A stretch of DNA of 47,234 nt, from IMG/VR virus record IMGVR_UViG_3300046529_000705, positions 1-47,234 of that record, one strand, 5' to 3'. The notes beneath the pieces were generated by a model, which was given only the letters and a program-made list of their open reading frames with translations, was not told the origin of the DNA and made no database searches. Made by a program: the position numbers and the translations under genes. How positions within the stretch are numbered: position 1 is the stretch's first letter; each line of letters starts with the position of its first letter. This stretch comes from a virus. Shown here in pieces: positions 1,335 to 45,649 of the stretch.

Positions 1335-1919
1335 TCAGAACGCCCTCGGGCCCAGGCCGCTGGACTGCACGGCGACGGCGGGGACGGCTTCCACGGCCGT
1401 GACGATGGCCGGGACCGCGACCGACTCGATGTTCTGGACCACGGTGCCGACGACGGGGATCTCCTCGGCCGCCTTGACCGCCTCCTCCACGCCGGACTCG
1501 ATGATGTCGGTGCTCAAGGGGAAGTCGTTGGTGATGCCCTGCTCGTCCTCGGACTGCTCGGCCGCCTGCGCCACCAGGAAGTAGCTCTCGATGTCCGCGC
1601 CGCCGGTATTAAGACGGCTCTCGACCTCGGACACGAACAGGTTCTGGAGCGCGGCGAACCACGAGTACTTCTTCAGCAGCGAGTGGTAGGCCGTGGTGCC
1701 GGACAGCCAGGCCAGGAACGCGGCGATCACCGCAGGCGCCCACACGAAGTTCGACGGGTCGGCCTTGTAGGTGGCCAGGGAGCCGGTGGCAACAGCCAGG
1801 ACGGCGTGCACGATGCCCTTGACGGTGGAGTTGGTCGACGGCTTGGTGAACACCGCCACGATGGCGGGCAGGACCAGGCCGACGGCGAGGGCCGCCACGT
1901 CGGCGTAGTTGGTAAGCAT
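1335..1919 (-). CDS. Phage membrane protein, holin candidate
   Basis: I chose the ATG at 1919 (MLTNYADVAALAVGLVLPAI), preceded by AAGGAT at suitable spacing; an in-frame upstream start at 2000 would overlap the preceding gene and lacks support. The 194-residue protein has about three hydrophobic segments in its first 90 residues (VAALAVGLVLPAIVAVFT, a second near IVHAVLAVATGSL, a third near WAPAVIAAFLAWLSG). An acidic C-terminal half follows. This layout is common in actinophage holins. It lies directly before a second small membrane protein and after the tail genes. A CTTAATACC motif sits near codon 106. Confidence 0.6.
   Translation of the reverse strand: MLTNYADVAALAVGLVLPAIVAVFTKPSTNSTVKGIVHAVLAVATGSLATYKADPSNFVWAPAVIAAFLAWLSGTTAYHSLLKKYSWFAALQNLFVSEVESRLNTGGADIESYFLVAQAAEQSEDEQGITNDFPLSTDIIESGVEEAVKAAEEIPVVGTVVQNIESVAVPAIVTAVEAVPAVAVQSSGLGPRAF
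1605..1613 (-). promoter_or_regulatory. CTTAATACC motif, site 1
   Basis: Exact copy in the membrane-protein gene at 1335, sense direction, read Leu-Asn-Thr (SRLNTGG). Confidence 0.6.
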
Positions 1920-1941
1920 GGGGATCCTTACGGGGTCGTGG

Positions 1942-3156
1942 TTACTGGGTCGGCAGAACGGCGTACTTGGGTACAGCCGCCGTGATTCCCAGAGGAACAT
2001 TCTCTTCGAGCAGGGTGCGGATGAGGTAACTGCGCTCGACGTAGTTCTCGTAGAAGTACGAGCGGGTCAGGTTCGCCGTCCCGCCCTGCTCCCACAGGTA
2101 GTCCCCGCCCATCGAGCCGTCGAAGTAGGAGCGGACGGCGGTGCCCTCTTCCACGAGGATCCCGTCGGCCCAGAAGATGCTGGACTGCCCGGCCGTCATG
2201 GTGGGCTTGGAGACGTTCATCCCCACCCAGACGCTGGACGCCGTGGCTACGAAGGTGGTCCAGATGGTCCGCCACCGGCCAGGTGCTGCCGAGTTGTAGG
2301 TCAGCCGGGCCCCCGGTGTCGAGCCGTTGGTGCTGCTCCACGGGTAGACGTTGCCGCAGTACTGCGCGGCGGAGACCCTGGCGCTGAAGGTGTACGTACG
2401 CCCCGGGATGAGCCCGGTCAACTGGAAGTTCCACCCGGCATCCACGGTGACCGTGGTCGGGACGGTCACCTTCAGGGACTGCGTCCCCTTCCAGACGAGG
2501 GAGGTGTCGGCGGCCACCGAGGCGCCGTTGGTGGCTGCGGCCCCGGTGATGCCGCTCTCGAAGTTGGGGTTGGGCGCGTAGTTGAGCCGGGTCGGCTTGA
2601 TGACGGCCTGGATCTCCCGCGCGTTCTGGTAGGCGCTCGGTCCACTCGCCCCGAGCGGCAGCGGTTCGAGCTGTACCGCGTCGAGGATCTGGTGCTTGTT
2701 CGCCGACATGGACGCGAACTTGAAGCCCACGGATGCGTACGCGGCCCGCTTCCAGGCGTAGCCGCCCCCGGATACCGGGTAGTCCACCGGGCCGGTGAAC
2801 GCGGCGTAGGGGCGGCTGTAGGAGCCAGCGGGGGCTGAGGTCAGCGCGCCGGAGTTGCTGCCGATCCACGCCATGGCCGGGTCGGTGCCCGCGTAGGGGT
2901 AGTGGGCGAAGTCCTTGAACGCTGCGGCGGGTGTCTTCAGTCCGGCCGAGAGGTGACCCTGGAAGGAGATCTGCCCGGCCTCGGGTGCCAGCGGCTGCGG
3001 GCGCGGGATCCGGATGGCCAGCGTGCCGTCGAGGGTGACCTGTCCACCGATCTCCGGGCCGAACACCCGGTAGCGGCGGCCGACGACGATGCCGGAGAAG
3101 GAGATGGTCGGGGACCCGTCGTCGTTGTTGACGAAGGTGATGTTGTGCGTGGTCAT
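1942..3156 (-). CDS. Tail protein with carbohydrate-binding-like domain
   Basis: A 404-residue protein whose ATG overlaps the upstream stop by one base (TGATG). The N-terminal ~60 residues are beta-rich. The middle contains NYAPNPNFESGITG followed by aromatic and Gly/Thr-rich strands, the usual opening of CBM4/9-like jelly-roll domains also seen in other actinophage tail fibres. The C-terminus carries alternating Tyr-rich strands (LTRSYFYENYVERSY). It is probably a receptor-binding or fibre component, the last structural tail gene of the operon. The host sugar ligand cannot be read from sequence. Confidence 0.6.
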   Translation of the reverse strand: MTTHNITFVNNDDGSPTISFSGIVVGRRYRVFGPEIGGQVTLDGTLAIRIPRPQPLAPEAGQISFQGHLSAGLKTPAAAFKDFAHYPYAGTDPAMAWIGSNSGALTSAPAGSYSRPYAAFTGPVDYPVSGGGYAWKRAAYASVGFKFASMSANKHQILDAVQLEPLPLGASGPSAYQNAREIQAVIKPTRLNYAPNPNFESGITGAAATNGASVAADTSLVWKGTQSLKVTVPTTVTVDAGWNFQLTGLIPGRTYTFSARVSAAQYCGNVYPWSSTNGSTPGARLTYNSAAPGRWRTIWTTFVATASSVWVGMNVSKPTMTAGQSSIFWADGILVEEGTAVRSYFDGSMGGDYLWEQGGTANLTRSYFYENYVERSYLIRTLLEENVPLGITAAVPKYAVLPTQ

Positions 3157-5138: not shown

Positions 5139-5139
5139 G

Positions 5140-8025: not shown

Positions 8026-11000
8026 CTAGCGTGTGTACGTTATGCGGAGTTGCGGAGGGTGGGAGTCGCCAACACCGTTGAAGATTCCGTAGTAGGTCTT
8101 GTCGGTGCTGGATCCCAGGTCTCCACCGAGCGTAATTCCACGATAGGGGGTGGACGCGTTCCAACTGGAATTCCAGGAGGACGGCAGGGTTACCCACTTA
8201 CCGGCGCCTACCGGCCAGGAGGAAACGGTGTCGTTTACTCCACCCACGCCCGAGAATCCGGTCGGCTCGTTGGTCCCTGTGAACACGCCGATGTGCGCCG
8301 TACCGCCCCCGTTGTAGTACCAGTGGTTGGCGTACAGGTAGACCTCGACCTTGGAGACCTTCGCCGTGGAACCCATGTCCGTGTACGGCTGCGTGCCGAA
8401 GTAGACCATCGACTTCTGCGTGCCCCAGGTGCCGGAGTAGTAGCCCTGGTACATTGAGCCGTCGGTGTACCCGGCGCTGCCGAACCGGCGGGACCAGATC
8501 GCGTTGTACGTCTTGGTGTACGTCTGAGTGGCCGTGACGACCTGGCCACCCGTGTTGTAGACACCGCCTTCGTGGACCGCTGGGCCGATGTCCTCGACAT
8601 AGAAGTCCGAGGACTGTCCCGGGCTGTAGTTGCGCATACCCCAGCCGGTAGCGGCGCCTGCGTGGATGCGCCCGACCCACAAGACCCGGTGAGTGCCCGG
8701 CGCGAGCGCCGTGGTGGCGCCGTACAGTCCGCCCGGGTCGGTGGAGCAGACGAGGATGGTTTCTACATCAACCGTGAAGTCGCTGCCGACGCCGTCGTAA
8801 GAGATCCCGAAGTTGCGGCCGAGCATCGTGTCGTTCACCGTCGGGCTGGCACCGTTCGGTGTGAGGATGGTGCAACCGTTCAGCGTCGTCGTCGTTCCGG
8901 ACGCTTGGATAGCGTTCTCCAACTCGGACGGGGTGCCACCGCTACCTCCTCCCGTGAAGTCGAACTGCGAGCGGGCCCGGATGCGGTACATGCGCCCCTC
9001 GACTGCCGTGAAGGACAACTCGATCAGGCCAAAGGATGCATCCGTGTTGCCGGTGGCGCTCATGTAGTAGGTGCTGGAGGTCGGCTTCTGGGTCCATCCG
9101 CGCTCGTAGGTGACCATGCCCCACGGCATGTTCCACAGCAGGGATCCCAGTTCCTGGCCCTGGTACCAGATCTGGCCGGTCGGGTCGTCGGAGGCAGCAC
9201 CCACCGGACGCTGTGGGGTGAAGACCGCGTTGAAGGTTCCCACTCCGTTGGGGTCGATGGACGCCTTGCCGCCCGCGAAGGTGGCGTACGCGTTGGACGT
9301 GGTCAGTTCGGTGGCGAGGGTGCCGTCCGGGCCGTAGAGGCGGACCCCTGCGGCGGAGATGTCGGTGGCGCCGTAGCCCTCGCGCATGACGAGGACGTCG
9401 TCCACGCAGATGTAGGAGAACGACGTCGTGGACAGTCCGTACGAGCCGGGGTTCAACTGCTGGAAGGAGACCCTGCCCCACAGCGCTCCAGTGGGCGCCG
9501 TCATCTCGAAGATGTCCTCGGTGTACGACGCGGAGTTGTAGGTGACGTCGTTTGCGCTGGCCATCTGGTCGGTCCAGGTGACCTTGTCCGGGCTGGTCTC
9601 GAAGGTGACGTGCAGGTGCCCGATGCCGTAGTACCAGTACCGGAGCATGTACGTATCCCCGGCGACCACCGGGAAGGCGTCGCTGGTCGCGGTCGCGGTT
9701 CCGGTGTTGTTCACGCCCAGAGTCGCCTTGCCCTGGCCGGAGCGCGCGGGGTACGCGCCCTGGGCGATCTCGATCTTTGCCACCGTGGTGGCCAGGGTGC
9801 TGTCGCTCTGGGTCAGGGTCCAGCCGGTGCGGGAGGAGTCCTCGAAGCCCGGGTTGCTGAGCAGGTTGCCGGACACGGAGCCCAGTGAGAGGTGCGAGGC
9901 GTTGACGTTGCCCAGGTTGATGTTGGCCGAGTTGACCTGCCCGGTCTCGACGACCTCGATGGTGAACATGTCGACCTCGACGGTGCCCGTGCCGCCGTTG
10001 TAGTTGGCGTACAGGCAGGGGCTGATGTACCGCACGTTCTGGTGCACGCGCATCGGAGTGAGCGGGCTGGTGTTGGTCCCGGGGTCGGCGGTCGCGGCCG
10101 TGCCCTTGATGTAGCCGGTGAAGACCTGCCAGCCCGAGCCGGTGTTGACGTAGGTGGCCTTGGTCGCGCAATAGTGCTGACTGGAACGGGCGTTGGATCC
10201 GCTGGAGTTGACCAGGGCCACGCCGTCGGCAGCGATGCCTGTGATGCCGACGTAGACGTTCTGATTGGTGCCTGCCACGGCGTTGGCGACGGTCTGGCGC
10301 AGTCGGCAGGTGACGCGGTAGGTGACGCCCGGGTCGAAGGGGATGAGCAGGTCCGGCCGGTAGGCTCCCTGGATGTAGCCGACGCAGCGCATGACGTACC
10401 CGCCGGACGCAGCGTCGGTGACGGCGACCGAGGTCATGGTGCCGGTGCTGCCGTTGCTCCACTTGGACGCGTTGGTGCCGAAGTCGTAGAACTTCTGCCC
10501 GACGGTGCCCTGGAGTCCGGCACTGAGTTTGTCGGCGGTCAGCGTTCCGGCCTTGATGCTGGCGGCGTCCAGGTTGGTTACGGAGACCAGGGAGGCATCG
10601 AGGGTGCCGGTCTTGATCGAGCCGCCGTTGATCGTGGTTGTGGTCGGGATGGTGCCGTTGCTCAACTGCCCGGCCGGGACGCTGACGCCCGCGCCGATGG
10701 ATCCGGTGACCGTGCCCGAGGACGTCGCTGTGCCCGCCGTGGTGGCCGACCCTGCCGTGGTGGCTGAGGTGGCTGAGGTGGCGGAGGCGACCGTGCCGGA
10801 CACGTTGGCGCCGGAGATGACCAGGCCGCTGGCGTCGATCTGCGAGGCGGTGAGTTTCCCGACGGTGATCTTGGACGCGTCGATGGACGCGATGATGCCG
10901 GACTCGGCGGTGATCGTCCCGGTGTGCATCTGGTTCGCGGTCACCGAGTTCGCTGCGAGGTCCCCGGTGCCCGCCTGCTGGGCCGTGCCGGAGTTCGAGC

Positions 11001-11892
11001 CGGACGGGGCGGAGGCGATACCGACCTTGGAGTACGCGACGAGCCGGTAGTAGTAGGCGCTGGCGTAGTTCTGGATGGAGTCGTACAGGAAGTCCGGGCC
11101 GGGCAGGGTGCCCACGACGACCGGGTTGGAGAACGCTACGTCGGTGTCGCGCTGCACCTGGACGTGGGAGAAGACGGCAGGCATGACGGTGCCGGTGGAG
11201 TCCTTGCCATCCCAGGTGACCCGCAGGCCGCCGAGCACGCCGATGACCCCCGGCGCGGAGGGCACCGGAGGCGGGGTGGACGCGGACGCCGTGGTGAGGC
11301 TGGCGCTCGCCCACAGGGAGGAGTTGCTGCTGGTGTCGAAGGACGCGACCCTCACGTAGAAGGTCACGCCGGTATTAAGCCCGTCGAGGAGGACCAGGTC
11401 CTCCGTGGTGACGAAGCCGCCGCTCCAGTTGCTGTTGTCGTAGGAGGTCTGGAGCAGGTAGTGGGACAGGTCGGTGAGGGCGGTCCCGTCCTGGTTCTCC
11501 GTCGGCGGGGTCCAGGAAGCAGTCACGCGGGCGCGGGTGGCTCCCTCTGCGGTGACGTACTGCACCGTGGTGAGGGTGAGCGCGGTCGGCTCCTTGGGCG
11601 GCAGGACGTCGAGGCCGCTGCTTCCGTCGCCGAGCTGGACGACCTGGTCCTGGACGTCCTTGATGCCGAGCGGGGAGTAGACCGGCTTGGTGATGTCGCC
11701 GCCGGAGAACTGCACCCACAGTGTCTGGCCGACCGGCGGGATGGTGTTGGTCGGGGATGAGGGGGCGGCCCAGGCGCTTTCGGCATTACCGAGGACCTGC
11801 GGAATGAGCAGCGTGACGCGGGCCTCGTTCAGCGGGTCCTGGTTATTGGCAACGCTCGCCCGGTACATTCCCAGCACCGGATTAGCCGACAT
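8026..11892 (-). CDS. Spike-hub/fibre fusion: OB-fold, Fn3 and beta-rich fibre
   Basis: A 1288-residue protein. Residues 1-80 (LGMYRASVANNQDPLNEARV, then GQTLWVQFSGGDITKPVYSPLG) have the pattern of the gpV/gp5 OB-fold that seats the tail spike. One or more fibronectin type III domains follow at about 100-300 (TASWTPPTENQDG, LLDGLNTGVTFYVRVASFD). A Thr/Ser/Ala-rich stretch near 330-430 looks like a repetitive fibre stalk. Beta-sandwich domains come next, one opening with LLSNPGFEDSSRTGWTL (CBM4/9-like). The C-terminal ~170 residues are Tyr- and Gly-rich. It overlaps the hub gene by 11 bases. A normal gpV is ~200 residues, so most of this protein is extra, outward-facing material. Confidence 0.78.
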   Translation of the reverse strand: MSANPVLGMYRASVANNQDPLNEARVTLLIPQVLGNAESAWAAPSSPTNTIPPVGQTLWVQFSGGDITKPVYSPLGIKDVQDQVVQLGDGSSGLDVLPPKEPTALTLTTVQYVTAEGATRARVTASWTPPTENQDGTALTDLSHYLLQTSYDNSNWSGGFVTTEDLVLLDGLNTGVTFYVRVASFDTSSNSSLWASASLTTASASTPPPVPSAPGVIGVLGGLRVTWDGKDSTGTVMPAVFSHVQVQRDTDVAFSNPVVVGTLPGPDFLYDSIQNYASAYYYRLVAYSKVGIASAPSGSNSGTAQQAGTGDLAANSVTANQMHTGTITAESGIIASIDASKITVGKLTASQIDASGLVISGANVSGTVASATSATSATTAGSATTAGTATSSGTVTGSIGAGVSVPAGQLSNGTIPTTTTINGGSIKTGTLDASLVSVTNLDAASIKAGTLTADKLSAGLQGTVGQKFYDFGTNASKWSNGSTGTMTSVAVTDAASGGYVMRCVGYIQGAYRPDLLIPFDPGVTYRVTCRLRQTVANAVAGTNQNVYVGITGIAADGVALVNSSGSNARSSQHYCATKATYVNTGSGWQVFTGYIKGTAATADPGTNTSPLTPMRVHQNVRYISPCLYANYNGGTGTVEVDMFTIEVVETGQVNSANINLGNVNASHLSLGSVSGNLLSNPGFEDSSRTGWTLTQSDSTLATTVAKIEIAQGAYPARSGQGKATLGVNNTGTATATSDAFPVVAGDTYMLRYWYYGIGHLHVTFETSPDKVTWTDQMASANDVTYNSASYTEDIFEMTAPTGALWGRVSFQQLNPGSYGLSTTSFSYICVDDVLVMREGYGATDISAAGVRLYGPDGTLATELTTSNAYATFAGGKASIDPNGVGTFNAVFTPQRPVGAASDDPTGQIWYQGQELGSLLWNMPWGMVTYERGWTQKPTSSTYYMSATGNTDASFGLIELSFTAVEGRMYRIRARSQFDFTGGGSGGTPSELENAIQASGTTTTLNGCTILTPNGASPTVNDTMLGRNFGISYDGVGSDFTVDVETILVCSTDPGGLYGATTALAPGTHRVLWVGRIHAGAATGWGMRNYSPGQSSDFYVEDIGPAVHEGGVYNTGGQVVTATQTYTKTYNAIWSRRFGSAGYTDGSMYQGYYSGTWGTQKSMVYFGTQPYTDMGSTAKVSKVEVYLYANHWYYNGGGTAHIGVFTGTNEPTGFSGVGGVNDTVSSWPVGAGKWVTLPSSWNSSWNASTPYRGITLGGDLGSSTDKTYYGIFNGVGDSHPPQLRITYTR
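11371..11379 (-). promoter_or_regulatory. CTTAATACC motif, site 2
   Basis: Exact copy in the spike/fibre gene, sense direction, read Leu-Asn-Thr (DGLNTGV). Confidence 0.6.
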
Positions 11893-13033: not shown

Positions 13034-13298
13034 TGGGGATCCTGATGATCTGGCCGGGCGTGAGGTCGTCCCACGTCATGACCTCGGGGTTGGCGTCGGC
13101 GATGTGCCACCACATCCGTGCGTCGCCGTAGTACTGGGTGGCGAGCAGGTCGACGCGGTCGGAGGAGGTCCACTGGTGGTACGTGAACTGGAATGACCAC
13201 TCGCGCTGCTGGCCCGGTACGACGGTGAGGTTGGTGCCACGTCCGGAGGAGACCAACGCGAGGGTGGAGCCCGCGTAGCGGGAGTTCGAGGAGATCAC
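13026..13298 (-). CDS. LysM-like tail/baseplate protein (gpX/gp53 type)
   Basis: A 90-residue protein. The start is the GTG at 13298, which overlaps the upstream stop in the arrangement GTGA; longer in-frame extensions run antisense-like through the neighbouring gene and are rejected. Residues 50-90 (DLLATQYYGDARMWWHIADA then LTPGQIIRIP) are a LysM-like fold as found in P2 gpX, T4 gp53 and XkdP-type proteins. These stabilise the hub or wedge rather than degrade the wall. It lies between another tail protein and the hub gene in a tightly overlapping set. Confidence 0.78.
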   Translation of the reverse strand: MISSNSRYAGSTLALVSSGRGTNLTVVPGQQREWSFQFTYHQWTSSDRVDLLATQYYGDARMWWHIADANPEVMTWDDLTPGQIIRIPSV

Positions 13299-14077
13299 CG
13301 GCCTGCCTTTCCGCTGGAGCCCAACTGCTCCGACGCCGACAGCGGGTCGCCCCAGTTGCCGAGGCGCGGGCCGATGATCGGCGCGTACTTGTTGCCGCCC
13401 TGCGGGGAGGGCAGGAGCGTCACGCCCACGACGACCACGCAGCGTTGGGGGATCATCTGCTGAGTCCAGTGGGTGTACCGGACCTCCAGCGACGAGATGG
13501 TCCCGTAGTAGGACAGCGTCGAGCCGATGACGACGAACACCGGGGTGTAGATCATCGGGCCGGACGGGCCGGTGGAGAACGAGCCCTTCTTGAAGTTGTC
13601 GATGGCGCCCTGGACGTCGGCCTTGTTGTCGCCGGTCGCGCTCATCGGGGAGGCGATGCCGGTCATCCGGTACAGGGACAGGACGTCGTAGGCGACACCG
13701 AACTCGGGCACCCACGTGAGGGCGTCCCCGTAGAGTTTCGAGGAGTCCCACAGTTCGTAGGTGCGGTCGAATTGCAGCGCGAAGGACAGCGTCTGCTGGA
13801 GGGGCAGGATGAACTGCCCCGCAGTGACGTCGTTCGGCAACTGTGAGTTCGGGTCGGCGAGGACCCCCGTGTCGATGCCGTGGTTGAGGTCGATCTCGCC
13901 CGGGTTGTACAGGAAGTTGCAGCGGTAGCGCACACCGTTGATCGGCTTCTCCATGATGATGAAGCCGCGCGTCAACTTCTTGTTGTTGTCGAAACTGTGC
14001 CCGTCGTTCTGGAGGAACGGAATGGCAGAGATCCGAGGGTCGAAAGGACCGTTGTCCACGATCTTGCTGGCAGCCAT
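13295..14077 (-). CDS. Baseplate/tail protein of unknown detailed role
   Basis: A 260-residue protein starting MAASKIVDNGPFDPRISAIP. It is beta-rich with GVRYRCNFLYNPGEIDLNHG, FALQFDRTYELWD and LSYYGTISSLEVRYTHWTQQ. The last segment resembles the beta-barrel tail proteins that lie between tape measure and hub in contractile phages. It starts exactly at the stop of a nine-codon ORF (TAATG) and ends in a 4-base overlap with the LysM-like gene. Placement suggests a baseplate inner component. Confidence 0.6.
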   Translation of the reverse strand: MAASKIVDNGPFDPRISAIPFLQNDGHSFDNNKKLTRGFIIMEKPINGVRYRCNFLYNPGEIDLNHGIDTGVLADPNSQLPNDVTAGQFILPLQQTLSFALQFDRTYELWDSSKLYGDALTWVPEFGVAYDVLSLYRMTGIASPMSATGDNKADVQGAIDNFKKGSFSTGPSGPMIYTPVFVVIGSTLSYYGTISSLEVRYTHWTQQMIPQRCVVVVGVTLLPSPQGGNKYAPIIGPRLGNWGDPLSASEQLGSSGKAGR

Positions 14078-14106
14078 TACACAGCCACCCAGATATTAAG
14101 CCGCAT
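14077..14106 (-). CDS. Nine-codon ORF linking tape measure and next tail gene
   Basis: ATG at 14106 lies 1 base past the tape-measure stop (TGACATG) and reads MRLNIWVAV before TAA, which overlaps the next start (TAATG). It exactly fills the gap and would hand ribosomes from one gene to the next. It contains the one-base variant CTTAATATC of the recurrent motif. It may be a coupling ORF without a functional peptide. Confidence 0.4.
   Translation of the reverse strand: MRLNIWVAV
14092..14100 (-). promoter_or_regulatory. CTTAATACC motif, variant site 3
   Basis: CTTAATATC, one base different, in the nine-codon ORF between tape measure and next tail gene; read Leu-Asn-Ile. Confidence 0.45.
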
Positions 14107-14107: not shown

Positions 14108-17100
14108 TCAGTTCCCTGCCGCGATGAGATTGATTCGGTTGTCCTCGGCGAGCGCCGTCATGAACTTGTTCGCTGCGTCCCGTGCCGAGGTCTGGTCCAT
14201 GGCGCCGGACACCTGCACCGTGACTGCGCCCGCGTGGAAGTTCAGGGTGGCCTTACCACCCGAGGTATTAAGCCCGCCGATACCACCAGCCAGTGGTGTA
14301 TTACTCGACAGCGCCTTACGGATTGCGTCGGCCTGGTGCGCCGGGATAATCATTTCGCCCTTGTGGACGCGGGCCGTCTGGTCAACGTCGATATTCGCCG
14401 ATCCGACGGCGTATCCCTTGTAGGATCCGCCGTTCGCCATCGACTTGATACCGGGCACATTCGCCAGGGAGCCGTACCGGGAATCCGCGTAGCGGACACC
14501 GGCAATGATGTTGTCGACCGGATTCCAGATGTTCTTGTGGCCCGCCAGCGAGTACGCCTTGAACGTCGAGTCGATGGTCTGCATAATGCCCTTCGACGGG
14601 TGGCCCGCCTTGGCATTGCTGTCCCAGTTGTTCTGCGCGTGCGGATTACCGCCGGACTCGTGCATGGCCATCGTGTTGACGTACTTCTCGTTCGACGATG
14701 TGTCCTGGTGCAGGATCCCGAGCGCGGACTTGATCCACCCCTTGAGGTTGCCGGTCGGCATCGAGCCGGGCACGGACCCGTTGTCGGTGCTTTTGCTGCT
14801 GCTGCCGCCCTGCCCTGCGCCCACGCCCGAGCCGACGTTGGCCGCGCCGACCGAGGAGATACCGGCCGCGATGGCGTCGACCTCCTCGACCGAGCCGTAC
14901 GAGCCGACGTCACCGCCGAAGCCCATGGAGGACAGGCGGTTGGAGTCAGACCCGGCGGTGTCGGTACCGTCGTCGGCGAGGTCGCCGAGGTTGCCGACCG
15001 CACCGAGGATGCGCACCGCGTTGGTGAACTCGCCGGACTGGTAGGCGCGGATACGGACCGAGGACCCGGTGTGCGGGGCCTCGATGATCTTCCCGTTGCC
15101 GATGCACATCACGACGTGGTGCGCGGGGTTGCCGTTGAACAGCAGGTCGCCCGCCCGCTCCTGGCCGAGCTTGACCGACTTACCGGCCTTCTGCTGCTGC
15201 GCGGCCGTACGGGGCAGGGAGACGCCGATCTGCTTGAACGAGAACTGGATCAGGCCCGAGCAGTCGAAGCCCTTCGGAGAGGCACCGCCCCAGACGTACT
15301 TCACGCCCAGGTACTTCATGGCGACCCTGATGACCGAAGCGGCCGTCTTGCCCGCACCGTTCGTGCCCGTGGCCACCGCGCCGCTCTTCCCCTTGCCGCC
15401 GGTCGCGGACGCCGCGCTGCTGCCGCTGCCCCCGTCACCACCCCAGAGGCTGGACACCAGACCGTAGCCACCACCGATGGCACCACCGATGACGGTTCCC
15501 TCGGGACCGAACAGCGTTCCGATGGCAGCGCCATACGCTGCGTCGCCGAGCGTGGCCGACGCAACGTTGATGGCCTTCTTGCCCTTTTTGTTCTTGACGT
15601 GCTTGGCCGCGTAGTCACCTGCGGCGTGGATTCCCCACCCGGCCAGACCGAGACCGCCAGCCTTGGCCAGCGGGGAGCGCAGCAGGGCACCGGCACCGGC
15701 CATCATGCCGCCGTCGGCTGCGGCTGTACCTGCACCGCCCAGGAGGCTGCCTGCTCCCCCGGTACCTCCGAGCATGCGTCCGGCCATACCGAGGCCGCGC
15801 ATCATGCCGTAGTTGCCCATGGCGGAACCGACAGCGGATCCGACCATGGAACCCATGCCACCGGCATAACCGATCGCGCTGTCCAGATGGGTGTTCTTCA
15901 GGAAGTTCTGGATCGCGGTGCTGAACTCGTTCAGGTACTTCGTCGCGGTCTGGAGGCCGTCGGTGTAGGAGTCGTTGGTGTTGACGGTCTGGTTGCGCAG
16001 CGTCCCGGCCCGGTCGGACAGGGACTGCGCGTTCGTCTTGCCGATGCCCCACGAGTTCATCTTGGCGATGGCCGACTTGTCTCCGTTACCGACCTTGTTC
16101 ATCGTGGACGCGTACGACTGCGCCGAGATGCCATGCATCTGCGCGGTGAGCAGTCCCAGCAGCGCGCTGCGGACCTGCTGGAGCGTGGAGGCGTCCATGG
16201 TCGCCGACAGCGACTGCATCATGGCCGAACCCGGGCTCAGCGTCTCGTCGAGCTGCTCCTTGGTCTTGACGTTCTTCAGCGACGGCCAGCGCTGGAGCAC
16301 CTGCTGGGCGATCTGCTGGGGCGTCTGCCGCTGCCCGCCCTTGATCGTCTGGATGCCGATGGCCTGGTTGGCGTAGTAGGACTTGGCCGTCCACGCGCTG
16401 GTCATGCCCTGGACGCGCTGCGCCTCGGAGACTCCGGGCTGGAGGTAGCCGGACGACTTGGCGTAGTTCCAGGCGGTGTTGTAGTTCGCACCGCCCGGGG
16501 AGCCCACGGAGGATCCCACGAGGCGCATCTGGGCCTGGGCGATGTCCTGGGTGCTCTGCGCGGTGAAGTTGTTCTTGTACGCCTGGTCGCGCAGGGTGTG
16601 CCAGTTGGAGCCCGACAGTTGGGCTGCCTGGTAGGAGGTGGTCTGCATGACGACCTGGTCGTCCATCTGCTTGGTCGACCAGGCGTAGAAGTCCTTGAGA
16701 CCACCCTTGAACGTGTAAGGGCTCTTGCGCGCACCACTGCCGGAGCCGCTGCCCGAACCGCCGCTGCCGGAGCCGCCCTGGCCGCCGTTGTTGGCCGCTC
16801 CGCCACCCTGTCCGGTCTGGCCGGAGAACGTGGCACCGCCACCGTTGGAGGAGGTCGTCTGGCGCTGCTGCTGGCCGCCAGCTCGGGGAGCCGTGGAGGG
16901 GGCGCTGGCACCGCCGTTGGGTCGGCCGTGGCCGTAGTTGCTGGTGTTGTTCCAGACGTCGTTGGCGAGCATGCCGAAGCCCCGGGCGCCTGATTGCGAC
17001 CCGGAGCCACCGCTGTGCCAGCCCTGCCAGAGCCCCTGGGCTCCTCCGCCGACCGTCTTCATCTTGGCGGCGGCCGTCTCCAGCCCCTTGTTCAGGGCCT

Positions 17101-17191: not shown

Positions 17192-17381
17192 TGTCCGCCT
17201 CAGCCGTTCGCCTATTGCGCTGCGCCGTAAACCACTTCACCCAGTGCAGGCGCTCCCGCACGGTCAACCGGCGAATTTCGCTGAGGCTCCAAGCCGGGGA
17301 TAGCTCGACTAGTTGCTCGTATTCGAAGTACGTGTCGAAGTAGTTACAGGCCCTGAAACAGATCCCCCGCCGAGATGTAGA
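17184..17381 (-). CDS. Frameshift extension of the tail assembly chaperone (GT-type)
   Basis: This frame has no ATG but stays open from about 17415 to a TGA at 17184-17186 that overlaps the tape-measure start by 8 bases. It encodes YFDTYFEYEQLVELSPAWSL and a basic helical tail. It is +1 relative to the end of the chaperone gene. In that gene, AGGAGG (17393-17388) is followed two bases later by CCC C (17385-17382), an arrangement like the SD-stimulated +1 shift of RF2. A GGGGG run at 17368-17364 is a second possible slip site. Slipping at CCC C would add 65 residues. Coordinates assume that site. Confidence 0.65.
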   Translation of the reverse strand, partial: STSRRGICFRACNYFDTYFEYEQLVELSPAWSLSEIRRLTVRERLHWVKWFTAQRNRRTAEADNG

Positions 17382-24734: not shown

Positions 24735-24757
24735 CTCGACCGAATTACGAGTACAGT
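24735..24757 (-). terminator. Small hairpin between scaffold and capsid genes
   Basis: In the leftward mRNA GTACTCG and CGAGTAC form a 7-bp stem around TAATTCGGT, overlapping the scaffold stop codon. There is no U-tract, so it is more likely an mRNA-stability or processing element that favours capsid mRNA than a true terminator. Confidence 0.4.
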
Positions 24758-28116: not shown

Positions 28117-28128
28117 TTGTTAATACCG

Positions 28129-32751: not shown

Positions 32752-33825
32752 TCACCGTGCCTGGCGTAGCTGCACGACGTTGTGCTGGGAGACCATCGAG
32801 GTCAGGAACGGCTGGCCCTTCATCGTCTCGTCCCGGCGCCGCGTCTCACTCGACAGCCCCAGGTAGCGCTCGGTGGTCGCCATGTTGCGGTGGTGCAGCA
32901 GCGCGGAGACCGTACGGATCGCGGCGTCGTAGCCCGACTCCTGCGACAGCTTGTCGAAATACGCGCGGGCCACCGCCCGGCGCACCGTGTGCGTCCCCTC
33001 GTAGCGGGTCGGCAGGCCCAGCTTGGCCAGGGCCCCCTTCACGATCTTCTCCGTCCGCTCGACCGGCCGGTCCGGGTGCCACACGTACGGGGTCCGCTCG
33101 TACACCCTGCGCCCCAGCTCCTCGTCGAAGTAGTGCGTCTTGATCTGGTTGCCCGAGCGCGAGGGGAAGAGGTAGTCGTCGTCATCCAGCGGGCGCCCGA
33201 GCAGCGCCGCGTACTCCTCGAACCAGATGCGCAGCTCCCGCTCCAGGTCGGCGGTGAGCGGCATCTCGTCCTCCTCCTTCGTCTTGATCACGGTCACGAA
33301 GACCTCGCTCTGCGCGAAGTCGACGTCCCCGACCTTCAGGGCTTGCAGCTCGCTCGCGCGGCACGCGGTGTTCACGGCCGCCGCCAGGTACGCCCGGTGC
33401 ATCGCGCACTCGGCCTGGTCCAGGAGCTGGAGGAGGATCCCCGGCGCGGGCTGCATCCGCTTGCGCAGCGGCTCGGGCAGCGGCTCGACCAGGCTGAGGT
33501 AGTTGTCCAGCGGGGCGTAGCCGTTGGCGCGGGCGTAGGCGAAGAACACCTTCAGGCGCTTGCGGTAGTGGTTGTGCGTCGTCGGCCCGACGGCCGCACG
33601 CAGGGCCTGGCCCTTGATGCGGGTGACGTGGATGTCCATGAGCCCGCCGTCGCCGTAGAAGAAGTCCCGGACGAGCTGCGGGGTGAGGTCGTCGAAGCTG
33701 GGGTTGCCGAGGTGGTCGGCGAAACGGGGCAGCAGGCTCTCGTCCGTACGCATGGTGTTGTCGGCCTTGGCCACGCGCCGGTTGTGCAGGTACTCGTCGA
33801 TCGCGCTGCGAAGTGCGGTGGTCAC
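32752..33825 (-). CDS. Tyrosine recombinase/integrase
   Basis: A 357-residue protein starting at a GTG with AGGAGG upstream. The N-terminal SAM-like DNA-binding domain covers ~1-105 (AIDEYLHNRRVAKADNTMRT, NHYRKRLKVFFAYARANGYA). The catalytic domain carries Arg near 157 (NTACRASELQALKVGD), Lys near 178 (VIKTKEEDEMPLT), the H-x-x-R box near 277 (GTHTVRRAVARA), the second His near 309 (LLHHRNMATTERY) and the Tyr nucleophile near 319 (ERYLGLS). All catalytic residues are present, so it is probably active. It lies back to back with a serine recombinase 400 bases away. Confidence 0.9.
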   Translation of the reverse strand: MTTALRSAIDEYLHNRRVAKADNTMRTDESLLPRFADHLGNPSFDDLTPQLVRDFFYGDGGLMDIHVTRIKGQALRAAVGPTTHNHYRKRLKVFFAYARANGYAPLDNYLSLVEPLPEPLRKRMQPAPGILLQLLDQAECAMHRAYLAAAVNTACRASELQALKVGDVDFAQSEVFVTVIKTKEEDEMPLTADLERELRIWFEEYAALLGRPLDDDDYLFPSRSGNQIKTHYFDEELGRRVYERTPYVWHPDRPVERTEKIVKGALAKLGLPTRYEGTHTVRRAVARAYFDKLSQESGYDAAIRTVSALLHHRNMATTERYLGLSSETRRRDETMKGQPFLTSMVSQHNVVQLRQAR

Positions 33826-33947: not shown

Positions 33948-34100
33948 ATGACGAACCTGACAACGCTTAATACCTCGGGCTCCAACGAGCCCCAGGTCAC
34001 CGTGACCCTCACCAACAACCGGATGGAAGACAGCCGCTGGAACCGGCTCCTCACCATCCTCTTCACCCCGCAGGACGAAGACGCGCCCGCAGCGAGCTAG
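33948..34100 (+). CDS. 50-residue ORF carrying the CTTAATACC motif
   Basis: ATG at 33948 reads MTNLTTLNTSGSNEPQVTVT and continues to DEDAPAAS before TAG at 34098. Codon use is GC-biased as in neighbours. Codons 7-9 are the recurrent Leu-Asn-Thr motif, here on the plus strand, again in the sense direction of its gene. The peptide is polar with one basic helix (RMEDSRWNRLLTILF). The ribosome-binding site is weak. It lies between the two recombinases and may be a leader or recombination directionality-type small protein; this is speculation. Confidence 0.55.
   Translation: MTNLTTLNTSGSNEPQVTVTLTNNRMEDSRWNRLLTILFTPQDEDAPAAS
33966..33974 (+). promoter_or_regulatory. CTTAATACC motif, site 10
   Basis: Exact copy on the plus strand, at codons 7-9 of the rightward 50-residue ORF (TTLNTSG). 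The orientation flips with the gene. Confidence 0.6.
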
Positions 34101-34133
34101 CACAACTCCCCCACACAAACGGGCCGTTCCCCA

Positions 34134-34139
34134 TATACT
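34134..34139 (+). promoter_or_regulatory. Candidate -10 element for the serine recombinase gene
   Basis: TATACT at 34134-34139 is near the consensus and stands out in GC-rich DNA. No good -35 lies 16-18 bases upstream. Transcription would start near 34146, so the leader would include the hairpin at 34144-34202. Confidence 0.4.
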
Positions 34140-34143
34140 GCGC

Positions 34144-34202
34144 TGATCAACAAGACGGGCCTGCCCACCGCGAGTCTAGGCGCGGGGACAGGCCCTTGAT
34201 CA
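34144..34202. other. Inverted repeat before serine recombinase gene, attP candidate
   Basis: TGATCAA (34144-34150) pairs with TTGATCA (34196-34202), and GGGCCTG (34157-34163) with CAGGCCC (34189-34195); CCC/GGG extends it inward. Serine-integrase attP sites are ~50-bp imperfect inverted repeats next to the integrase gene, which fits position and size. It could also be a leader hairpin. The crossover dinucleotide cannot be assigned by eye. Confidence 0.4.
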
Positions 34203-34223
34203 GTCTGTAAAGGAGACTGAGCC

Positions 34224-36320
34224 ATGGCCAGCATAGCGGCTGAACGCGCCCGCGCACGGGCTGAGAAGGTCAACAGCACCCGCCCCGGCACCCCCAACAG
34301 CTTCAAGTCCAGCATCGCCCTCGCACGCATAGTCAAGCGCGTCGGCGCCTACATCCGCGTCTCCACCAAGGACCAGATCGTCGGCTACGGCCTCGACGTC
34401 CAGCTCCAGGGCATCCAGGACCACATCGACAAAAAGAACCTCCACGAACAGCAGAACGAGACCAACATCGTCTGGGAACTCGGCGACATCTACGAGGACG
34501 CAGGCGAGTCCGGCGCCAAGCAGGACCGCCCCCAGATGATGCGCCTGGAGAGGGACGTCCTCGACAAGAAGATCGACGTCGTCGCCGTCCACAAGTTCGA
34601 CCGCATCGGCCGCACCGGCCGTGCCTTCTGGCACTGGGTCTGGGCCCTCGAAGACGCCGGGACCTCCATCATCTCCGTCACCCAGGAGATCGACACCACC
34701 ACCACCCACGGCGTCACCGCCCTCCAGCAGCTCGCCTCCTTCTCCGAGATGGAATGGCGCACCATCCTGGAGCGCACCCAGAACGGCCTCAACATGAAGG
34801 CCGCAGCCGGAGGCTGGACCGGTGGCCCCCCGCCCTACGGCTACCGCATCGAGAACCAGGGCAAGCGCGACTCCAAGCTGGCCGTGGACCCCGTGGAGAG
34901 CCGCACCCTCGAACTGGCCGCCCAGCTCATCGTCGAAGGCGGCTACACCGTCGACCGCGCCGCCCACATGCTCAACCTCATCGGCCGCCTCACCCGCAAG
35001 GGCGTGGCATGGACCGGATCCAACCTGCGGCACAAATTCCGCAACACCGCCCTCGACGGCTTCGTCGTCTACCGCAACACCGACGAGGTCGTCAACAAGC
35101 GCCGCAAGCGCGCCACCAAGATGAACCCCGACGGCAGCCCCAAGCACGGACCGATGATGATCATCGACACCCCGATGGTCTTCGACATCGACCGGCTCAT
35201 GTCCATCCGCCACGCGCTCCGGCGAAACGGCGGCTGGACCCACTCCGGGAACTACAAGTACCACCCGCTCAGCACCCGCGTTATCGGTGAATGCGGCGCC
35301 CACTACACCGGGGTCCACGTAAAGATCGAGGACCGCCGCACCTACCGCTGCTCCGGCAAGAAGTGCGGCGACTCCGTTATCGACGCCGTCGCGCTGGAAG
35401 AGATCGTCTGGGACAGCCTGAAGAAGTTCCTCGGCGACAAGTCCAAGCTGCGGGAGATCGCCAAGGACTGGGTTACCACCGCGCCCGATCACCGGGAGAT
35501 GTACGTCGCCCGTATCGGCGAACTCGAACGGGAAGTCGCGGGACTTCTCGAACTCACCACGACGACGCTGGTGAATCTCGCAACGGCAGGAGTCGACGCG
35601 CGGGCGATCAATTCGGCCGTCGCTAAGATCAACGAGGACATCAGCCTCAAGCAGACGCTGCTCGATGACGCCCGGGACATGCTGTCGAAGTCCGAGGAAG
35701 CTGCACAGCGCGCGGAGGATTTCCAGCGGCTGGTCGAGATCGCCAGCTTCAACCTGGAGAACATCAACGACCGGCAGAAGTCCGAGATCATGGACCTGCT
35801 GGAGATCCAGGTGACGCTTATAGGGCCGGTTCCGCTGGAGCGTCGCTTTGGGCCGGGGTCGGAAATCGAAGCGTGGCACGTCGAGCGCGGGCGTATGCCG
35901 AAGGAACTCACGGACGAGCTGTGGGAGCAGATCAAGCCCAACATCCCGTTTCGGGTCACCAAGCGGAGCCTGGACCTTCGACTGCTCGTGGAGGGGCTGA
36001 TCCACAAGGCGCGTACGGGCTGCCCCTGGGATGAGATGCCGGAACGGTTCCCCGACAAGAACGCTCTGCGCTCCCGCTGGAGGGCCTGGAGGGGCGGGAC
36101 GTGGGAGAGCTTCATGGAGCCGCTTCTGGAGGCCGTGCCGGTCCGTCCACTGCGTCAGGCGCCGCTTCCGCCCATGCGGGTGACGGGGAACATCGACCCC
36201 CGTCTGGTCGAGTTCACGAACGGCAAGCTGACGAGCCAGGTTCCTCACTCTGGCGCACCGACATCCAGGGGATCGTTCACGTACATCATCAACGTGGCTG
36301 ATCTGCGATTGGCCGTCTGA
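34224..36320 (+). CDS. Large serine recombinase with IS5-type transposase-like C-terminal domain
   Basis: A 698-residue protein with AAGGAGA before the ATG. A ~37-residue basic leader precedes the resolvase domain; the nucleophile is Ser47 in GAYIRVSTKDQ, with later motifs DIYEDAGESGAKQDRP and VVAVHKFDRIGRTGRAFWHW. The recombinase domain lies ~185-330. A zinc ribbon has CG near 356 and RCSGKKCG near 378. A coiled coil follows (~420-510). The end, ~561-645, reads LTDELWEQIKPNIPFRVTKR, then LLVEGLIHKARTGCPWDEMP and WRAWRGGTWE, the pattern of DUF4096, the N-terminal domain of IS5-family transposases. That domain is not a usual part of serine integrases. Confidence 0.88.
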   Translation: MASIAAERARARAEKVNSTRPGTPNSFKSSIALARIVKRVGAYIRVSTKDQIVGYGLDVQLQGIQDHIDKKNLHEQQNETNIVWELGDIYEDAGESGAKQDRPQMMRLERDVLDKKIDVVAVHKFDRIGRTGRAFWHWVWALEDAGTSIISVTQEIDTTTTHGVTALQQLASFSEMEWRTILERTQNGLNMKAAAGGWTGGPPPYGYRIENQGKRDSKLAVDPVESRTLELAAQLIVEGGYTVDRAAHMLNLIGRLTRKGVAWTGSNLRHKFRNTALDGFVVYRNTDEVVNKRRKRATKMNPDGSPKHGPMMIIDTPMVFDIDRLMSIRHALRRNGGWTHSGNYKYHPLSTRVIGECGAHYTGVHVKIEDRRTYRCSGKKCGDSVIDAVALEEIVWDSLKKFLGDKSKLREIAKDWVTTAPDHREMYVARIGELEREVAGLLELTTTTLVNLATAGVDARAINSAVAKINEDISLKQTLLDDARDMLSKSEEAAQRAEDFQRLVEIASFNLENINDRQKSEIMDLLEIQVTLIGPVPLERRFGPGSEIEAWHVERGRMPKELTDELWEQIKPNIPFRVTKRSLDLRLLVEGLIHKARTGCPWDEMPERFPDKNALRSRWRAWRGGTWESFMEPLLEAVPVRPLRQAPLPPMRVTGNIDPRLVEFTNGKLTSQVPHSGAPTSRGSFTYIINVADLRLAV

Positions 36321-39455: not shown

Positions 39456-39465
39456 TGCGGCCAGG

Positions 39466-42834: not shown

Positions 42835-42839
42835 TACGC

Positions 42840-42882: not shown

Positions 42883-42888
42883 TATGTC

Positions 42889-43392
42889 CTACACCCACTC
42901 TCCGGTGAGTGCGCCGTGGACGTTGGCCTCGCGGTAGGTGTCCGGCTTGAGGATCTTGCCGTCCTCGCGGCGGATCACCTGGCCGTTGGGGCCGACCTTG
43001 CTCATGTTCGAGCGGTGGACCTCGGCGAAGACGGGCTCCAGGGGGATCTCCAGGAGGTCGGCGGTGCCGTAGATGACGTACAGGGCGTCGGCGAGTTCCT
43101 TGGCCAGGGCCTCGTACCAGTGCGGCGCCTCGACGACGTGCTTCCGGCTGAGGAGCATGTCCTGGTTGGCCTCGAAGTGGTCGTCCATGATCTGGGCCTT
43201 GCGGTAGTTCAGAAGGGCCTCCAGGGCCTCCTGGACCTCCTCGGCGATGAGGGTGGACCGCAGGGCGATCAGGTCGTCCCGTCCGGCCTCCTCGCGCTCG
43301 ATGAACCGCTTCTCCCCCACTGCCTGGTGCCACTGTCTCAGGGACGCCATGGGCCGGTGGGGGCGGGTATTAAGCCAGGTCTTCGCTGTCAC
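42889..43392 (-). CDS. MazG-like/HisE-like NTP pyrophosphohydrolase
   Basis: A 167-residue protein starting at a GTG with GAGGAG. The all-alpha fold shows LIAEEVQEALEALLNYRKAQ with the E-E-x-x-E metal motif, then ALAKELADALYVIYGTADLL with E-x-x-D. EPVFAEVHRSNMSKVGPNGQ is typical of phage PRA-PH/MazG-like enzymes. It would hydrolyse nucleoside triphosphates or alarmone-type substrates. Codon 6-8 is the Leu-Asn-Thr motif. It is the last gene of the leftward unit starting at 45649. Confidence 0.82.
   Translation of the reverse strand: MTAKTWLNTRPHRPMASLRQWHQAVGEKRFIEREEAGRDDLIALRSTLIAEEVQEALEALLNYRKAQIMDDHFEANQDMLLSRKHVVEAPHWYEALAKELADALYVIYGTADLLEIPLEPVFAEVHRSNMSKVGPNGQVIRREDGKILKPDTYREANVHGALTGEWV
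43366..43374 (-). promoter_or_regulatory. CTTAATACC motif, site 11
   Basis: Exact copy at codons 7-9 of the MazG-like gene (KTWLNTRP). Confidence 0.6.
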
Positions 43393-43425
43393 TGTCTGGT
43401 GCTCCTCGCGGATGGGGTGGGGTGG

Positions 43426-43920: not shown

Positions 43921-44107
43921 TGTCTTCCTCCAGGTTGTACTTGCCGATGAAGTCGATCTGGAACAGGTGCGGGGCCCGCTCGGCCTTGTCCCGCCAGTCC
44001 GTCACGTGGAACTGGCGGGAGTAGAAGAACGTCTTGGGCTTCCAGCCCGAGGGGACCTTCAGCAGGACCCGCACCTTCCAGACCGCGTTGTCGCGGGCTG
44101 TCTTCAC
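43913..44107 (-). CDS. 64-residue protein of unknown function
   Basis: It starts at a GTG overlapping the upstream stop (44104-44107). The sequence MKTARDNAVWKVRVLLKVPS then KTFFYSRQFHVTDWRDKAER is basic and beta-rich. No family is recognised. It overlaps the papain-like gene by 8 bases. Confidence 0.5.
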   Translation of the reverse strand: MKTARDNAVWKVRVLLKVPSGWKPKTFFYSRQFHVTDWRDKAERAPHLFQIDFIGKYNLEEDSG

Positions 44108-44430
44108 TCAGCGCCCCCGGAGGGGGAGGTATTAAGCAGGCTGAGGATGGTCGCGGTCTCGGTGGGGACCTGCATGAACGGTTCGGCGATCTGGACGGCG
44201 ACCTGGCTGAAGGCGTCGCCGATCTGCTCGTAGATGCCGCCCATGCCCTCCAACTTCTCGGAGAACTCCAGCAGGGTTCCGACGACGTCCTTGATGGACA
44301 CGTACGTCTCCTCGTCGTCGCCGACGATGTAGTGGTACGCGGCCTCGTGGTCGGAGGTGATCTCGGTGACGATGCTCAACGGGTACTCCAGGGCCGTGGT
44401 GGTCGGCTTACAGCCAGATGCGGTGCTCAC
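44104..44430 (-). CDS. 108-residue acidic protein of unknown function
   Basis: I chose the GTG at 44430, with AAGGGA upstream, since the upstream frame runs into the phosphoesterase gene. The protein reads MSTASGCKPTTTALEYPLSI and contains DEETYVSIKDVVGTLLEFSE and KLEGMGGIYEQIGDAFSQVA. It ends LSLLNTSPSGGAE with the recurrent motif. It is helical and acidic. It overlaps the phosphoesterase gene by 23 bases. Confidence 0.55.
   Translation of the reverse strand: MSTASGCKPTTTALEYPLSIVTEITSDHEAAYHYIVGDDEETYVSIKDVVGTLLEFSEKLEGMGGIYEQIGDAFSQVAVQIAEPFMQVPTETATILSLLNTSPSGGAE
44128..44136 (-). promoter_or_regulatory. CTTAATACC motif, site 12
   Basis: Exact copy near the 3' end of the gene at 44104 (SLLNTSP). 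Confidence 0.6.
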
Positions 44431-45649
44431 TGGTGACGCGTCCCTTCTCGGGGTGGACGAAATGCAGGCGCTGGCTCGGGTCACCGGTCGCGGCCACGAA
44501 CTCGTGGGCGTACACGTTGTCCGATTCGGGGCTTCCGGTCATGTAGACGGAGCCGCCGTTGGCCAACTGCAACTGCATGGACTGGTGGTAGTGGCCGATG
44601 TAGAGGTCGCGGAAGGTCGGAAGGACCCCGCTCGCCCACTGGTTGGCCTTGCGGAGGATGCCGTAGGCGGGGATGTTGCCGCCGAAGGACTTGATCTCGT
44701 CGCCGTGGATGGCCATGGCCTTGTAGTTGCCGATGGAGAAGTTCTGGTACCAGTCCCCGGAGGTCTGGAACTTCGTCAGCCGCCCCTCGTGGGCCAGACG
44801 CTCGCGGACGATGTTGTAGACCATGCGGTCGACGTTGTCGGACGCCTTGATGCCGTCGGACTTCTTGCCGAGGCGACCGTGGTTGCCGTACTCGGCGACG
44901 ACCTCGACCTCCTCGTAGACCTGGAGGGCCTTCTTGATCGTCCACATCATCAGGTCGGAGACGTCGAACATCTGCTCGTAGAGCGTTCCGTCCAACTCCC
45001 AGACCTGGCCGGGGAAGATGCTCACGCCTTCGACCATGTCTCCGGTGAAGAGGAGGACCGCCTTGCGGACGGGGTGGTCGGCGCGCTGGATCTCGGTGAT
45101 CTCGGTGGCCTTCTCGACGTAGCGCATCACCCGGGTCCGCATAATGGTGCGGTCGTAGGTGATCGTCTTCTTGCCGCCCTGCCAGTCGGTGAGGTGCCAC
45201 AGGGCTACCTCGGACGGCTTGGTGCGCTTGTCGGCCTTCGGCGGGGTCACCGGGCTCGCCCCGACGAACTGGGCGGCGTCGCGGGCGGCCTTGTAGACGG
45301 CCTCGATGTACTCGTCGCCGCGCGCCTTGGCCTTGGTGAACTGCTGGAAGAGGCGCCGGTTGTCGGAGGTCAGGGACTCGATGCGGTCCCGCAGCACCTC
45401 CTCGTTCTCGGCCACTGCCTCGGCCGTGCCCTCCTCGGGCAGGGTATTAAGACGCTTCGGTTCCTTGCCCGGCTCGACGAGGATGGCGCGCTTGTAGCCG
45501 TTGGCCTTGCGCCAGCGCCGGACGGCCGTCTCGGACGTCTCGATGCCGTTGAAGACGAGGTCCGCAGCGGCGGCCTCGTGGCCGACGGTGGGGTCCATCA
45601 GGATCTCGCGGACCCACTCGACGTCAGTGGACTCGGTAAGGGCGCTCAA
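44408..45649 (-). CDS. Calcineurin-like metallophosphoesterase with N-terminal HTH
   Basis: A 413-residue protein starting at a TTG with GAGAGGA. Residues ~20-50 (AAADLVFNGIETSETAVRRW) look like a helix-turn-helix, and a coiled coil follows (~75-115). The catalytic domain shows the metal motifs in order: LTDWQGG (~153), FTGDMVEG (~203), YGNHGRLG (~254), AIHGDEI (~314) and IGHYHQ (~352). Phage relatives are usually called Mre11/SbcD-like nucleases or phosphoesterases. The HTH suggests it may act on DNA or regulate. It is the first gene of the unit and follows a promoter with two operators. Confidence 0.82.
   Translation of the reverse strand: MSALTESTDVEWVREILMDPTVGHEAAAADLVFNGIETSETAVRRWRKANGYKRAILVEPGKEPKRLNTLPEEGTAEAVAENEEVLRDRIESLTSDNRRLFQQFTKAKARGDEYIEAVYKAARDAAQFVGASPVTPPKADKRTKPSEVALWHLTDWQGGKKTITYDRTIMRTRVMRYVEKATEITEIQRADHPVRKAVLLFTGDMVEGVSIFPGQVWELDGTLYEQMFDVSDLMMWTIKKALQVYEEVEVVAEYGNHGRLGKKSDGIKASDNVDRMVYNIVRERLAHEGRLTKFQTSGDWYQNFSIGNYKAMAIHGDEIKSFGGNIPAYGILRKANQWASGVLPTFRDLYIGHYHQSMQLQLANGGSVYMTGSPESDNVYAHEFVAATGDPSQRLHFVHPEKGRVTSEHRIWL
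45443..45451 (-). promoter_or_regulatory. CTTAATACC motif, site 13
   Basis: Exact copy near codon 67 of the phosphoesterase gene (KRLNTLP). Confidence 0.6.

Follow-up and report, generated by a model that had tools for sequence, protein, structure and literature searches.

The window analysed here is the whole of the 47,234-base virus record IMGVR_UViG_3300046529_000705 (65% GC), and the element in question is the nine-base motif CTTAATACC, which recurs across it and which an initial annotation had likened to the stoperators of mycobacteriophages. The window comes from a contractile-tailed phage, the open reading frames (ORFs) scanned including those for a tail sheath, a tape-measure-like protein, a baseplate hub, and a tail fibre. 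Of the named phages in the collection, those nearest to it are Streptomyces phages of 113-116 kb, such as Alone3, with about 75% identity over a tail-tube stretch only. A homologous contig of 105.7 kb (G008) encodes a tyrosine integrase as well as a large serine recombinase, and since homologues of both are present in the window, the phage is probably temperate. The genes for the large serine recombinase, which has a DUF4096 stretch, and the tyrosine integrase are adjacent and in opposite orientations in the window (33948-36320 on the plus strand and 32752-33825 on the minus strand; also locus L092, 1-3519).

Twelve exact copies of CTTAATACC and the variant CTTAATATC occur in the window, all at the positions and on the strands originally reported, with the exact copies split 11:1 between the strands. 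Every copy runs in the direction of its gene, and the exact copies read as the codons CTT-AAT-ACC. A short hairpin usually begins 0-2 nucleotides (nt) 3' of the motif, its sequence being unrelated between sites.

The minus-strand copy at 1605-1613 lies in an ORF of 221 amino acids with unassigned function (1335-2000) and is without a strong hairpin. The next minus-strand site (11342-11379; motif 11371-11379, hairpin 11342-11370, -20.5 kcal/mol) is located in the tail protein ORF 8026-11892. On the same strand, the site at 14245-14272 (motif 14264-14272, hairpin GGGTGG/CCACCC at 14245-14261) is found near the end of the tape-measure-like ORF 14108-17191, where homologues were compared, the site at 18169-18198 (motif 18190-18198, hairpin GAGGGG/CCCCTC) occupies codons 5-7 of the baseplate-hub-like ORF 17344-18210, and the site at 19765-19793 (motif 19785-19793) has an 8-bp hairpin GCGTGGGT/ACCCACGC within the tail sheath ORF 18813-20357. 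The minus-strand copy at 22465-22473 stands immediately before the TGA of the head-protein-like ORF 22462-22881, its downstream fold is weak, and motif-less relatives read CTGAACGCC there. Further minus-strand sites are found at 25572-25599 (motif 25591-25599, hairpin CGGGCA/TGCCCG), in codons 3-5 of ORF 24745-25605; at 29779-29808 (motif 29800-29808, hairpin GGGTGC/GCACCC), near the start of the tail fibre ORF 28129-29868; at 43346-43374 (motif 43366-43374, weak hairpin), in codons 7-9 of the nucleotide pyrophosphohydrolase-like ORF 42889-43392; at 44114-44136 (motif 44128-44136, hairpin CCCCC/GGGGG), in the last part of ORF 44104-44484, directly ahead of the next start codon, at 44107; and at 45427-45451 (motif 45443-45451, hairpin TGCCC/GGGCA), within the exonuclease ORF 44408-45649.

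The sole rightward site (33966-33992, plus strand; motif 33966-33974, hairpin GGGCTC/GAGCCC at 33977-33992) shows the strand flip that had been noted, as it lies in codons 7-9 of a rightward ORF of 50 codons (33948-34100, plus strand) upstream of the rightward recombinase gene. This ORF is conserved in the contigs G008, G001, and G003. This motif-bearing mini-ORF precedes the large serine recombinase gene.

The variant at 14092-14100 is a genuine site. It lies in a minus-strand ORF of nine codons (14077-14106; ATG CGG CTT AAT ATC ... TAA, encoding M-R-L-N-I-W-V-A-V-stop), whose stop codon TAA overlaps the start codon ATG of the following gene (13295-14077) at 14077, and the G001 homologue reads exact CTTAATACC.

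The estimate of fewer than one chance copy holds, as a dinucleotide Markov model expects 0.02 CTTAATACC per strand. With one mismatch allowed, dinucleotide shuffles of the window give a mean of 1.46 and a maximum of 5, against 16 observed. A codon-shuffled control, in which synonymous codons are permuted within each genome and every protein and the codon usage stay unchanged, yields a mean of 0.075 and a maximum of 2 copies in the window over 200 rounds, against the 12 observed. The same permutation gives means of 0.10 for G008, with 33 copies of CTTAATACC in called genes, and of 0.14 for the relative G013, with 24 copies of the related word CTTCATACC. It had been estimated that about half of the TTAA tetramers belong to the motif, and the count is 14 of the 24 in the window, one for each of the 12 exact copies and for the variant, plus that of a GTTAATACC at 28119. 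The last of these (28119-28127, plus strand) is intergenic and out of frame, and its complement GGTATTAAC is kept in a relative (G001 53846). The impression that most sites lie near gene starts or ends stands in part: in six genomes, the first 10 codons contain 17% of the copies where 5% would be expected, and the last 15 codons contain 17% where 7% would be expected, the remaining copies being internal.

Using the tail sheath protein as query, we gathered 79 related loci from IMG/VR, and the motif is found in dozens of these, on the gene strand in every case. Relatives carry 23-41 copies per contig, or overall about 30-40 per genome, at a density of about one per 2.1-3.3 kb. The single orientation seen in the window extends to whole relative contigs, with strand counts of 37:1, 27:1, 28:1, and 30:1, and the relatives keep the motif while the surrounding codons diverge. 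The copies are found in replication and structural genes alike, and the motif carriers are one lineage of probably temperate actinobacterial myovirus-type phages. A second clade has CTTCATACC in place of CTTAATACC at homologous positions. We refer to genomes with CTTAATACC as the A clade, or A type, and to genomes with CTTCATACC as the C clade, or C type. The fourth base is switched genome-wide, A-type genomes containing 0-1 C copies and C-type genomes no A copies. In the counts made, positions 1-7 are near-invariant, T also occurs at position 8, and T or G, though not A, at position 9, giving the full word CTT-[A/C]AT-A[C/T][C/T/G].

Motif-less relatives read CTGAACGCC, CTCTCCACC, CTGCACACC, or similar at the same codons, indicating that motif copies arise in place by substitution. 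Insertion by a mobile element was rejected, as homologues align without gaps and the motif appears through substitutions. The contig G016, with four copies of CTTCATACC on one strand, may be an early branch. The motif was not found in the distant relatives G015 and G018-G022 (about 44-50% sheath identity), nor was an analogous motif, the top words there resembling Shine-Dalgarno sequences or a stop codon plus ribosome-binding site. No further unrelated lineage clearly carries the element among the matches listed in a start-context scan, in which a subset of loci was counted. Five bacterial genomes (four Streptomyces and one Cellulomonas, with distant prophages), which may not include the host of the phage, show no excess over the reversed pattern, and a host signal of the nucleoid, methylation, or chi-like kind was rejected on these counts. 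Five genomes (G008, G009, G013, G003, and G001) have a motif-free block of 15-19 kb (P 0.02-0.07 each), which consists of small genes, including those for SprT-like, DUF2786/DUF7168, and DUF7178 proteins (G008 72326-87634; G009 60318-78992; G013 68409-85481).

The copies are locked in one reading frame, as CTT-[A/C]AT-A[C/T]N. All 152 A-clade copies in called genes are in this frame (frame 0), which is expected, because the other frames hold TAA or the very rare TTA-ATA pair. The initial annotation had explained the frame by such stops and rare codons, and this explanation holds for CTTAATACC but fails for CTTCATACC. The three frames of the C-clade word are all free of stops, and codon usage predicts 31% of the copies in frame 0, 12% in frame 1, and 58% in frame 2, whereas 108 of the 109 copies inside called genes on the same strand, a partly non-independent set, are in frame 0. 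At least seven sites arose directly as C type, at positions where relatives already have a His codon. For the 41 copies of both clades outside called genes on their own strand, frame 0 is open in every case and has an upstream in-frame start in all 40 that were checked for one, the remaining copy (G009 85919) being antisense to a called gene. We found no copy that lies outside an open frame 0.

Several copies are found in tiny ORFs, each of which overlaps the beginning of the following gene; the variant at 14092 is of this type. Their peptides share little beyond the motif, as in the conserved mini-ORFs encoding MPSR-LNI-NGGFGAAE*, MPLP-LHT-YRLGRAGN*, and MALP-LHT-YRIRL*, and several of these mini-ORFs end in ATGA, GTGA, or TAATG overlaps.

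Three comparisons support the hairpin. Across 105 sites, with window starts counted in nt from the motif start, the mean folding energy of 28-nt windows is -9.3 kcal/mol at starts of +6 to +10, compared with about -5.5 kcal/mol in the flanks. Relative to synonymous recoding, the fold in these windows is more stable with a mean z of -0.91 (standard error 0.13), control windows giving +0.20, and a strong hairpin beginning 0-2 nt past the end of the motif is present at 62% of the sites versus 33% of the recoded ones, with no excess for hairpins beginning 3 nt or more past it. Motif-bearing versions are also more stable than their motif-less homologues in 38 of 50 families (paired Wilcoxon test, p=6e-5).

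One site differs in its layout. In 12 distinct sequences of the leader that precedes a conserved gene with DUF2637-like and helix-turn-helix stretches, the motif and an immediate stop end an ORF that is either a start plus a few codons, e.g., M-V-R-L-N-T-stop, or the tail of an upstream reading frame. Here GGTATT or GGTATG forms a stem with the [A/C]ATACC of the motif over a loop of 5-8 nt, and the switching base pair is A-T in six sequences, C-G in six, and broken in none of the 12. Two further stable hairpins lie downstream, the last of which encloses the AUG of the downstream gene. The leader has no credible Rfam match. As judged from this covariation, the predicted pairing supports an RNA-level role for the motif; since only six of the nine bases are paired, a trans-acting RNA is not identified by this pairing alone.

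The element is nucleotide-specific, occurs in a single orientation and a single frame, usually has a hairpin within 0-2 nt, and changes its fourth base genome-wide. Our best explanation, put forward tentatively and with somewhat less than even confidence, is that motif and hairpin form a translated, ribosome-linked regulatory element with a co-evolving phage-specific reader. Of the readings offered by the initial annotation, the mRNA element mentioned in passing fits best. As the frame matters, the motif would be read during translation by the ribosome. The mRNA entry site of the ribosome lies roughly 10-12 nt from the C of a CTT codon in the P site, and the hairpin begins about 10-12 nt past the C of CTT. 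At contact with the hairpin, CTT would occupy the P site and [A/C]AU the A site, and the hairpin could hold the ribosome at the motif. A phage-encoded factor may then recognise this paused, codon-specific state and arrest translation or cleave the mRNA, lowering lytic gene expression as a translational counterpart of stoperators, with the A/C switch as a specificity switch like that between immunity groups. Silencing of lytic genes is suggested by the analogy to stoperators, and its direction and chemistry, by arrest or cleavage, are a guess.

It is conceivable, although we would not call it probable, that the phage operates a genome-wide regulon through the ribosome, in which a three-codon word plus hairpin marks some 30-40 genes and tiny upstream ORFs and is recognised in translation by a phage factor, the codon specificity of which (Asn codon versus His codon) defines an immunity-like group. 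If true, phage gene control, and possibly superinfection immunity, could be exerted genome-wide at translating ribosomes and not at the DNA, and the A/C switch would make the reader factor findable by genetics.

Several observations speak against such a ribosome-read element. About a third of the copies are without a strong hairpin, and compensatory changes within single site families show no excess over control windows, so that the case for the hairpin is made by energy, recoding, and paired tests and not by covariation. Part of the C-clade sites go back to an A-type ancestor, which makes the frame counts partly non-independent. The motif-free block, a possible lysogeny region, only marginally exceeds chance length, and no lysogeny gene was recognised there. 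Known ribosome-dependent mRNA interferases read one codon loosely and not three exactly (PMC2814082). Finally, Pfam and PHROGs searches covering most non-structural G008 proteins yielded no conspicuous RelE-type nuclease, RNA-binding domain, or classical phage repressor, and the RelE/HigB family had no Pfam match among the G008 proteins scanned, a subset of the ORFs.

The search for proteins that segregate with the A or C type returned only small or general proteins, e.g., a basic protein of 80 amino acids (G008 77857-78099) and an Lsr2-like protein. A swap of phage tRNAs behind the Asn-to-His switch was rejected, as the A-type G008 and the C-type G009 share the same Pro/Phe/Leu/Asn tRNA set. 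AAU and CAU codons are both read by tRNAs able to carry queuosine, and a G008 protein matching phrog_887, the queuine tRNA-ribosyltransferase group (L095 10527-12065; G008 70527-72065), could be a tRNA or DNA 7-deazaguanine enzyme, but the gene is also present in relatives without the motif. An Rfam scan of the window and G008 gave only tRNAs and a cyclic di-AMP (c-di-AMP, ydaO) riboswitch. Its aptamer (window 47017-47157, minus strand; L096 15912-16051) lies in the phage tRNA cluster, directly upstream of an NlpC/P60-LysM cell-wall hydrolase gene.

Among the other explanations, the one that fares best, although we consider it doubtful, is that the motif is an mRNA site for a phage RNA-binding protein or small RNA controlling translation or decay, which is not read by the ribosome and is found in frame 0 for another reason, for example, clearing by translating ribosomes. 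Many RNA-binding proteins would suit a conserved single-stranded core beside a structure of free sequence, and the gene-wise orientation, the tolerance of C to T at position 8, and the co-varying GGTAT[T/G] of the leader are in line with such a site, but the 108 of 109 frame-0 copies of the C clade are left unexplained. As for a small RNA, no trans-acting RNA with the full nine-base complement was found, and a second GGTAT[T/G] element, upstream of recA, is independent of the A/C type. The leader of the recA-like gene (G008 about 53480-53525, and homologues) contains a conserved strong hairpin (ACCGGTAGT ... ACTACCGGT), and the non-stem sequence is conserved too.

An opposite effect, in which the element promotes phage expression and a phage factor sustains translation, protects the mRNA, or couples neighbouring genes, appears rather improbable. 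It would agree with the presence of the motif in replication and structural genes alike, and the ATGA, GTGA, and TAATG overlaps of the mini-ORFs are typical of translational coupling, which copies in the middle of genes would not need. The phage also has a full RNA-repair set near its tRNA genes, composed of an RlaP nucleotidyltransferase, a T4-type RNA ligase 1, and a polynucleotide kinase-phosphatase (PNKP) (L096 9487-13448; G008 89487-93448), and the ligase and kinase genes carry the motif themselves.

The stoperator proposal of the initial annotation was right in describing a conserved, clade-specific, multi-copy, asymmetric nucleotide-level signal that is oriented with transcription across a temperate phage genome. 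As an operator on the DNA, bound by a phage repressor in lysogeny, the motif is unlikely, with only a slim chance in our estimate: copy number, orientation, and group-specific consensus match the stoperators of Cluster A phages (PMC6550527), but a DNA site needs no 3' hairpin, single frame, or tiny translated ORFs, nor does it explain the absence of copies outside an open frame 0, and the A/C-segregating repressor candidates are only small proteins of unassigned function and the Lsr2-like protein. A programmed frameshift, bypass, or recoding site is very improbable, for although three codons followed by a hairpin have the spacing of frameshift stimulators, CTT-[A/C]AT-ACC is not slippery, the -1 frame of the A clade hits TAA at once, and nothing is skipped at the motif, as motif-less homologues align gap-free through the hairpin. 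A Leu-Asn/His-Thr peptide under protein-level selection would always be in frame, but was rejected as refuted by codon identity, given that the motif retains precisely the rare codons CTT and AAT/CAT (in G008, each of the 35 in-frame CTT-AAT pairs belongs to a motif), that Asn changes to His in unrelated proteins, and that the hairpins are not a feature of the protein.

Searches of the literature turned up neither a report of the motif nor a matching element of a frame-locked codon word plus hairpin, and we know of no element in which a repeated, frame-locked, nucleotide-exact codon word is coupled to a hairpin. Leader-peptide attenuators of the erm/cat/tna type consist of a short translated ORF followed by hairpins masking a downstream start. 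The leader of the DUF2637-helix-turn-helix gene resembles these, but the motif codons are repeated at 30-40 places, for the most part within ordinary genes. The antisense-RNA immunity of P4 and P1 (CI RNA and C4 RNA) is a phage immunity at the RNA level with short complementary targets, whereas here only a 6-nt complement in cis was found and no nine-base trans-acting RNA.

The mRNA interferases RelE, HigB, and YafO act on translated mRNA only and in the register of the A-site codon (PMC2814082). The phage motif keeps to one codon register in its sequence; those enzymes cut many codons loosely and have no dedicated genomic target sites. The Start-Associated Sequences (SAS/ESAS) of Cluster K mycobacteriophages are 13 bp long and phage-specific, recur in one orientation, often with a single copy on the opposite strand, and have been proposed to act in translation; SAS, GGGATAGGAGCCC, is located in the ribosome-binding site, 3-7 bp before the start codon (PMC3203893). 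The motif is likewise repeated, oriented, and phage-specific, with a proposed role in translation. However, it has another sequence, lies downstream of starts, inside or at the end of ORFs, is frame-locked, and usually has a hairpin of free sequence, and while SAS would be confined to non-structural genes, copies of the motif are found in tail sheath, tail fibre, baseplate, and tail genes.

The stoperators of Cluster A mycobacteriophages (L5, Bxb1, and Trixie) are short asymmetric sites, up to 30 per genome, in one orientation relative to transcription, which are bound by the repressor as 13-bp double-stranded DNA and differ in consensus between groups (PMC6550527, PMC9283540). Such a site also serves as the operator of an early lytic promoter. 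The motif resembles them in its many asymmetric, transcription-oriented sites and its group-specific consensus (CTTAATACC versus CTTCATACC), but differs in lying in ORFs, including tiny ones. A stoperator is a DNA site independent of frame and transcript structure, whereas the C-clade copies are in frame 0 in 108 of 109 cases against 31% expected and the motif usually has a 3' hairpin. For dispersed phage motifs, frame and downstream structure should be examined before they are called operators.

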